In this document: positions 13,459 to 42,247 of the stretch, piece after piece
How the letters are laid out: every line of letters starts with the position of its first letter
How positions within the stretch are numbered: the first letter of the stretch is position 1
DNA from: Bacillota bacterium
GTDB lineage: Bacteria; Bacillota; Bacilli; Alicyclobacillales; SLC66
Reading direction: 5' to 3'
NCBI GenBank assembly: GCA_021805735.1
Contig: JAJZEE010000023.1
Span: 1 to 45,610 of the forward strand
Length of the DNA stretch: 45,610 nucleotides
Program-made: the position numbers and the translations under genes
Notes under the pieces: model-generated
What the model was told of the DNA's origin: nothing
Databases searched by the model: none
What the model saw: the letters and a program-made list of their open reading frames with translations, nothing else

Positions 13459-13498
13459 AAAAAACAAAAAGAGACACCGAAAAAACATCCGGTATCTC
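13459..13498 (-). terminator. Riboswitch expression-platform terminator before gcvT
   Basis: On the minus strand GAGATACCG (13498-13490) pairs with CGGTGTCTC (13479-13471) around a T-rich loop, followed by TTTTTGTTTT. It lies between the second glycine aptamer and gcvT and is the obvious intrinsic terminator to be relieved when glycine is bound. GAGGAGATACC, overlapping the 3' end of aptamer 2, could take part in an antiterminator. Confidence 0.8.
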
Positions 13499-13697
13499 CT
13501 CTGTCCCTTTACCTGAGAGTTCCCTTCGTCGGTCGCCCAATCACCAAGACGAAGTTTCCCCGTTGGTGGCCACACTGCGCACTCTCCAGAGAGGCGTCCA
13601 ACCGCGGTACTTTTACCTGAGAGATTCACACTGCAAGACCGCTCTTGCCGCTTGCTCCTTCGGCGACGGCTCTGTTGCGCCGTTCTCTCCCGCGACT
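13499..13697 (-). promoter_or_regulatory. Tandem glycine riboswitch
   Basis: Two glycine aptamers in a row on the minus strand. The first runs from CGGGAGAGAAC through GCCGAAGGAGCAA to CTCTCAGGTAAAAG. The second runs from CTCTGGAGAGTG through CCGACGAAGGGAA to CTCTCAGGTAAAGGGACAGAG. Both contain the conserved core and the A-rich 3' side of the class. It precedes gcvT and ends at a terminator, so glycine should switch the degradation operon on. Confidence 0.95.
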
Positions 13698-13724
13698 GTC
13701 ATCCGCATATGCCATTGTATTCTT

Positions 13725-41817: not shown

Positions 41818-42147
41818 TCATTTGTGTCGCGCCACGGCGTCTGCGAGCGCGGGAACCCGAATCGAGCCATGAGACGCATCCCACACAACATCCCCATTTT
41901 TCACTAGCATAACCTGCGGGGACGCATGCTTCACGCGCAATCGATCAGCAAGCCAGAGAGACAATGGCCTTGACTCAATAACCTTAACCATCAAGATGGG
42001 AACTTCGTGTTTCCTGTCAAACTCGTCTACCTCCTGGTAGGCTCTGGCGCTGACAGGTCAGGTGGTGCTGTGCTTGAAGAGAAGATATAAGCCGTCAGTT
42101 CCTGTCGCGGCGCTCGTCCACTCATCTTGCGTCGAAATCTCGATCAT
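41818..42147 (-). CDS. ytxJ: YtxJ-family thioredoxin-like protein with in-frame TGA at the active-site Cys position; candidate selenoprotein
   Basis: Reading from ATG 42147, 29 codons (MIEISTQDEW..., LYLLFKHSTT) are followed by TGA (42060-42058) and then 79 codons in the same frame (PVSARAYQEVDEF..., PVSARAY, PLSLWLADRLRVKHASPQVM, LVKNGDVVWDASH) to TGA at 41818. YtxJ (DUF2847, bacillithiol system) proteins have HSTTCPIS here with the single conserved Cys; the TGA replaces that Cys exactly. Everything else is intact, at the family length (109 aa). A SECIS-like hairpin follows the TGA. Ribosome site AAAGGA lies 11-12 nt upstream. Likely selenocysteine at position 30; otherwise a one-base nonsense mutation (TGC to TGA) or sequence error. 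Confidence 0.75.
42013..42060 (-). promoter_or_regulatory. Candidate bacterial SECIS element after the ytxJ TGA
   Basis: On the minus strand the base after TGA begins CCTGTCA (42057-42051), which pairs perfectly with TGACAGG (42019-42013). Inside, CTACC (42040-42036) pairs with GGTAG (42031-42027) around the tetraloop AGGA. The apical loop begins 22 nt after TGA, within the 16-37 nt range known for bacterial SECIS, and has G in its second position, as the consensus asks. The architecture recalls E. coli fdhF. Function is inferred. Confidence 0.65.
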
Positions 42148-42222
42148 GACACGCCACATCCTTTGCCATAGCAGGTTAGATTCGCACGGCGGCCCATCTG
42201 CGGGCACACTCTCCAGTATACC

Positions 42223-42247
42223 AAAAAAGGGGAGCCGCGGCTCCCAA
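42223..42247 (-). terminator. Rho-independent terminator after the YabE-like gene
   Basis: On the minus strand GGGAGCC-GC-GGCTCCC is a strong GC hairpin followed by CTTTTTT. It ends the yabE-like transcript and precedes ytxJ, so ytxJ should have its own promoter in the 75 nt between. Confidence 0.85.

Follow-up and report, generated by a model that had tools for sequence, protein, structure and literature searches.

The window (the whole 45,610-nucleotide stretch that was analyzed) carries on its minus strand a gene of 109 codons, brxC/ytxJ (41818..42147), encoding a monothiol bacilliredoxin that matched the Pfam BrxC family (PF11009, E 2.5e-28) and scored 96.4 bits against TIGR04019 (YtxJ), exceeding the cut-off of 77.25 bits for that family. 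The gene starts with ATG at 42147-42145 and stops with TGA at 41820-41818, and the frame runs from 42147 to 41821 when an internal TGA is read as a residue. This in-frame UGA (42058..42060, minus strand) is codon 30 and is proposed to encode selenocysteine (Sec). It occupies the position of the active-site Cys within the sequence KHSTT-U-PVS, aligns with the Cys of the solved BrxC/YtxJ structure 3iv4 and with the Cys conserved among homologues, and is followed by an intact frame. With Cys read for Sec, the product passes the curated cut-off, has a TCPIS-type active site and lacks a resolving Cys; no other Cys is present in any of the nine Sec-type BrxC proteins described below, that of the window included. 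Because brxC itself terminates at TGA, recoding of the UGA is local. Standard gene calling would end at this UGA, so that the enzyme would be missed or truncated. Just 5' of brxC, GGGAGCCGCGGCTCCC followed by a T run (42215-42247, minus strand) resembles an intrinsic terminator for the gene before brxC and is followed by TATACT, as judged by eye. Elsewhere in the window, two adjacent aptamers (RF00504, 69.8 and 33.3 bits) form a tandem glycine riboswitch at 13493-13702 on the minus strand.

The host genome encodes SelA (1.4e-152), SelB (4e-116), a tRNA-Sec with the anticodon tca (ARAGORN) and two SelD proteins, the gene for one of which adjoins selA. In both selD genes (L139 on contig C112 and L140 on contig C6), the Sec position is itself an in-frame TGA. 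The AGG loop described below for brxC is not common to these sites, one of which has a 3-nt GGC loop, while the best fold at the other lacks a G in the first two positions of the loop. No in-frame stop was found in the best host match to FdhA, and FdhA therefore offered no comparison of selenocysteine insertion sequences (SECIS). BshC is also encoded in this genome (3.7e-124), and a search of the host for a YpdA-type bacilliredoxin reductase returned none above its cut-off.

A match to brxC was found in 32 of 61 related genomes, the catalytic codon being TGA in nine loci and TGC or TGT in the other orthologues. Eight of the TGA loci fall in four genera of one family (L017, L018, L019, L026, L027, L029, L030 and L127, from genomes G000, G001, G002, G004, G006, G007, G013 and G014) and one in a second family (L046, from G053). 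Full-length SelA was present in 9/9 genomes with a UGA-type brxC, and the tree requires five changes between Sec and Cys, at least three of which are forced by well-supported branches. A UGA-pattern search of 59 genomes of the order recovered the same nine loci, with two further pattern matches left untranslated, and outside the order such a search added no Sec-BrxC from samples of 398 genomes each at the class and phylum levels. Four extra pattern matches were rejected as Sec-BrxC, their translations not being BrxC. One additional brxC, L128 in G057, retains the active-site Cys and has an in-frame TGA seven codons later (near position 603), at a site that is aromatic in relatives (NA[W/Y]REF); this TGA is probably a nonsense mutation, because G057 lacks a full SelA.

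The sequence 3' of the UGA was compared between pairs of Sec loci, with pN/pS values of 0.086/0.51 for the window and its congener (L017-L019), 0.27/0.64 for L026-L029 and 0.146/0.62 for L027-L030. These comparisons indicate that purifying selection acts on brxC beyond the UGA and that the gene is not decaying. The earlier note, which drew attention to the pairing after the TGA, had set it against the background of a decaying gene, a premise that proved wrong given a pN of 0.09 against a pS of 0.51 for the congeneric pair.

Immediately downstream of the UGA, the transcript can form two nested stems. The apical hairpin, CTACC-AGGA-GGTAG (42027..42040, minus strand), consists of CTACC at 42040-42036, the loop AGGA at 42035-42032 and GGTAG at 42031-42027, with pair probabilities of 0.95-0.96, and its loop begins 22 nt after the UGA. 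The outer stem, CCTGTCA/TGACAGG (42013..42057, minus strand), has its arms at 42057-42051 and 42019-42013. Re-reading of the minus strand confirmed that both stems, their arms, their coordinates and the 22-nt distance are exactly as the earlier note had given them. The apical hairpin alone has a folding energy of -4.8 kcal/mol compared to -16.3 kcal/mol for the whole 45 nt, from which the low energy comes. Against codon-preserving controls, the inner hairpin gave p = 0.04 by codon permutation and p = 0.10 by codon resampling, and the 45-nt folding energy gave p = 0.018, so that from the sequence of the window alone the inner hairpin exceeds chance only moderately. No SECIS match was found with Rfam, either across the window at the gathering threshold or at the site at a permissive threshold.

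Comparison across loci gave a clearer result. An AGGA or AGGU loop is present in 8/9 Sec loci, in two registers: in L017, L018, L019, L026, L029 and L127 the hairpin lies 22 nt after the UGA with a loop of AGGA or AGGU, and in L027 and L030 it lies 25 nt after the UGA, one codon later, with a loop of AGGU. In a hairpin-anchored alignment of seven loci, in which L027 and L030 were moved by one codon with the register set by eye, 91.8% of cells pair and 6/7 stem pairs are altered on both sides, giving a covariation score of 0.741 compared to 0.302 for shuffled and 0.02-0.16 for slid alignments. Several of these compensations accompany residue substitutions (Y to H together with D to S, and G to D together with T to I), and the protein alone therefore does not account for them. 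Codon-permutation p values ranged from 0.005 to 0.08 per Sec locus, and with one sequence per genus Fisher's method gave a combined p of 4e-5 for permutation and 3e-6 for resampling. A combined p of 2e-8 was obtained for eight loci, a figure that should not be leaned on because it treats close relatives as independent. The combined codon-shuffle p of the Cys orthologues was above 0.99, and in nearly all of them a comparable hairpin was absent or lacked a qualifying loop. At a line of -4.5 kcal/mol, chosen after the data were seen, a hairpin obeying the loop rule was found in 8/8 Sec loci compared to 1/18 Cys orthologues. The inner hairpin is thus clearly more than chance across loci, and the expectation of the earlier note that folding would surpass codon-shuffled controls held across genera (Fisher 4e-5 and 3e-6), but only to a moderate degree for the window by itself (p 0.04-0.10; 0.018 for the 45 nt). 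It is the apical stem alone that both covaries among Sec relatives and is lost in Cys relatives, and even this signal is weak in two loci. In L046 the stem is only 5 bp long and the loop, at 19 nt, is the 3-nt GGA (p 0.08-0.26), and the hairpin of L030 has a pair probability of 0.36, because another fold competes with it.

Two sets of close relatives differ in both the catalytic codon and the hairpin. In G004, a near-identical pair consists of L127, with UGA and an AGGU loop, and L028, with TGC and an AUGU loop, the stem being unchanged. Synteny extends around both copies for about 11 kb, with 86-88% identity (L170 and L171, on contigs C19 and C43). Given this synteny, we set aside the reading of the copies as paralogues; a segmental duplication, or the presence of two related strains in the assembly, is more likely. 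Between L046 and its close Cys relative L037, the codons forming the stem are different, as would be compatible with a recent origin of the SECIS, although this is a single case. Comparison of such closely related Sec and Cys forms, of which some have the hairpin and others do not, allows one to ask which minimal changes create or destroy a SECIS.

The identity of the gene, the UGA at its catalytic position, the Sec machinery and BshC of the host, the conserved and covarying hairpin and the purifying selection on the frame are all read from sequence, and on this footing we consider it very probable that a bacterial-type SECIS within the brxC coding region directs Sec into a monothiol bacilliredoxin. 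During translation of brxC, the apical hairpin with its AGG[A/U] loop would be bound by SelB-GTP carrying Sec-tRNA(Sec), and Sec would be supplied to the UGA located 22 nt before it, the codon for the catalytic Cys in Cys-type relatives; this proposed step follows the bacterial pathway as PMC13188914 summarises it. The full-length product would be a thioredoxin-fold enzyme with the active-site Sec as its sole chalcogen nucleophile, that is, a monoselenol bacilliredoxin in a BshC-bearing host, and would be expected to remove bacillithiol from S-bacillithiolated proteins and to be reset by free bacillithiol.

Other readings of the UGA and of the pairing have to be weighed against this one. That the TGA is a real stop, produced by a nonsense mutation or a sequencing error in a Cys-type brxC, with coincidental pairing, would be compatible with its occurrence in a draft genome and with the TGA found elsewhere in the Cys-site brxC of G057, which is without full SelA. 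However, nine loci from two families share TGA at this codon, a 2-contig assembly being among their sources, the UGA form is restricted to SelA genomes, and the frame beyond the TGA is under purifying selection; the comparative data already contradict a real stop, which we regard as very unlikely. Near-cognate tRNAs read through UGA as a known background process, and a residue other than Sec, for example Trp or Cys, might be inserted by such low-level reading or by a suppressor tRNA. For brxC this is extremely improbable, since the genome has the full Sec machinery, the gene uses TGA as its own stop, the site is otherwise a conserved catalytic Cys and the UGA form is associated with SelA genomes. 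It is also distinctly unlikely that the hairpin, although Sec is inserted, merely results from codon bias and from the conservation of the residues A-Y/H-Q-E-V. The conserved residues do overlap the stem, and the single-locus codon-shuffle p of the window is only 0.04-0.10, but both sides of stem pairs change together with amino-acid replacements, two different registers place AGG[A/U] in the loop, and qualifying hairpins are missing from nearly all Cys orthologues.

A further question is whether function depends on both tiers, so that the 7-bp outer stem would be essential as well. The outer stem exceeds codon permutation in the window (p = 0.004), and another outer stem, of 5 bp, is present in L027 (p 0.115). 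Nevertheless, 7/7 pairs are retained by the window and its near-twin alone (L017/L018), the congener L019 retains 5/7 with two central mismatches, and the remaining Sec loci have 2-4/7 at those positions, making an essential outer stem unlikely. The stem instead appears to be lineage-specific and not required, at most a stabiliser. The earlier note had presented both tiers as one structure, proposed covariation in the two stems as a check, and named Sec orthologues lacking either stem as the finding that would overturn it; since Sec-encoding relatives without the outer stem exist, that finding applies to the outer stem, and covariation is likewise confined to the inner one (6/7 pairs). For the inner hairpin, the SECIS reading was supported by the Sec machinery, the nine loci in which UGA takes the place of the active-site Cys and the covarying stem.

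A Sec-BrxC does not appear in the table of 119 prokaryotic selenoprotein families of a 2026 inventory (PMC13188914), nor is it named in the deep-Sep main text. No Sec form of bacilliredoxin/YtxJ was found in titles and abstracts, to which this search was confined, GenBank annotation and subscription papers being outside its scope. On balance, we lean towards regarding Sec-BrxC as an undescribed selenoprotein family that would give the bacillithiol system an enzyme that uses selenium. On this view, Sec and Cys have been swapped several times among close relatives, with gain or loss of the SECIS hairpin at those same codons (G053 having a third form besides the two registers, and the G004 copies a loop change), and nature supplies pairs from before and after a step in SECIS evolution. 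Provided that Sec is inserted, selenium is used by a bacillithiol-system redox enzyme in a group of Bacilli related to Alicyclobacillus.

The RNA element is of a known kind and fits the published bacterial SECIS (bSECIS) model, which specifies a loop of 3-9 nt with a G in the first two positions, a spacing of 16-37 nt, an upper stem of 4-16 bp and a folding energy of at most -7.5 kcal/mol (PMC13188914). The hairpin lies directly 3' of an in-frame UGA within a coding region, with loop, stem, spacing and energy in these ranges: the apical loop is 4 nt, the upper stem 5-8 bp, the loop begins 22-25 nt after the UGA (19 in L046), and the 45-nt folding energy is -8.2 to -20.0 kcal/mol. Both the loop G and the spacing support the SECIS reading of the earlier note as far as the inner hairpin is concerned. 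In contrast with known bSECIS elements, the AGG[A/U] loop occurs in a previously unlisted host gene without an Rfam model match, and different genera use two registers one codon apart. The proteins resemble BrxC/YtxJ (PF11009, TIGR04019; 3iv4) in profile score, in the TT[C/U]P[I/V]S site and in the lack of a second Cys in the Sec forms, but differ from the Cys type in that the active-site codon is UGA. As in the Sec-containing glutaredoxin and other thioredoxin-fold selenoproteins, Sec stands where a thioredoxin-fold reductase has the N-terminal Cys of its active site, but Sec-BrxC differs from these proteins in that it belongs to another family, has a U-P-x-S monothiol motif and would be linked to bacillithiol and not to glutathione.
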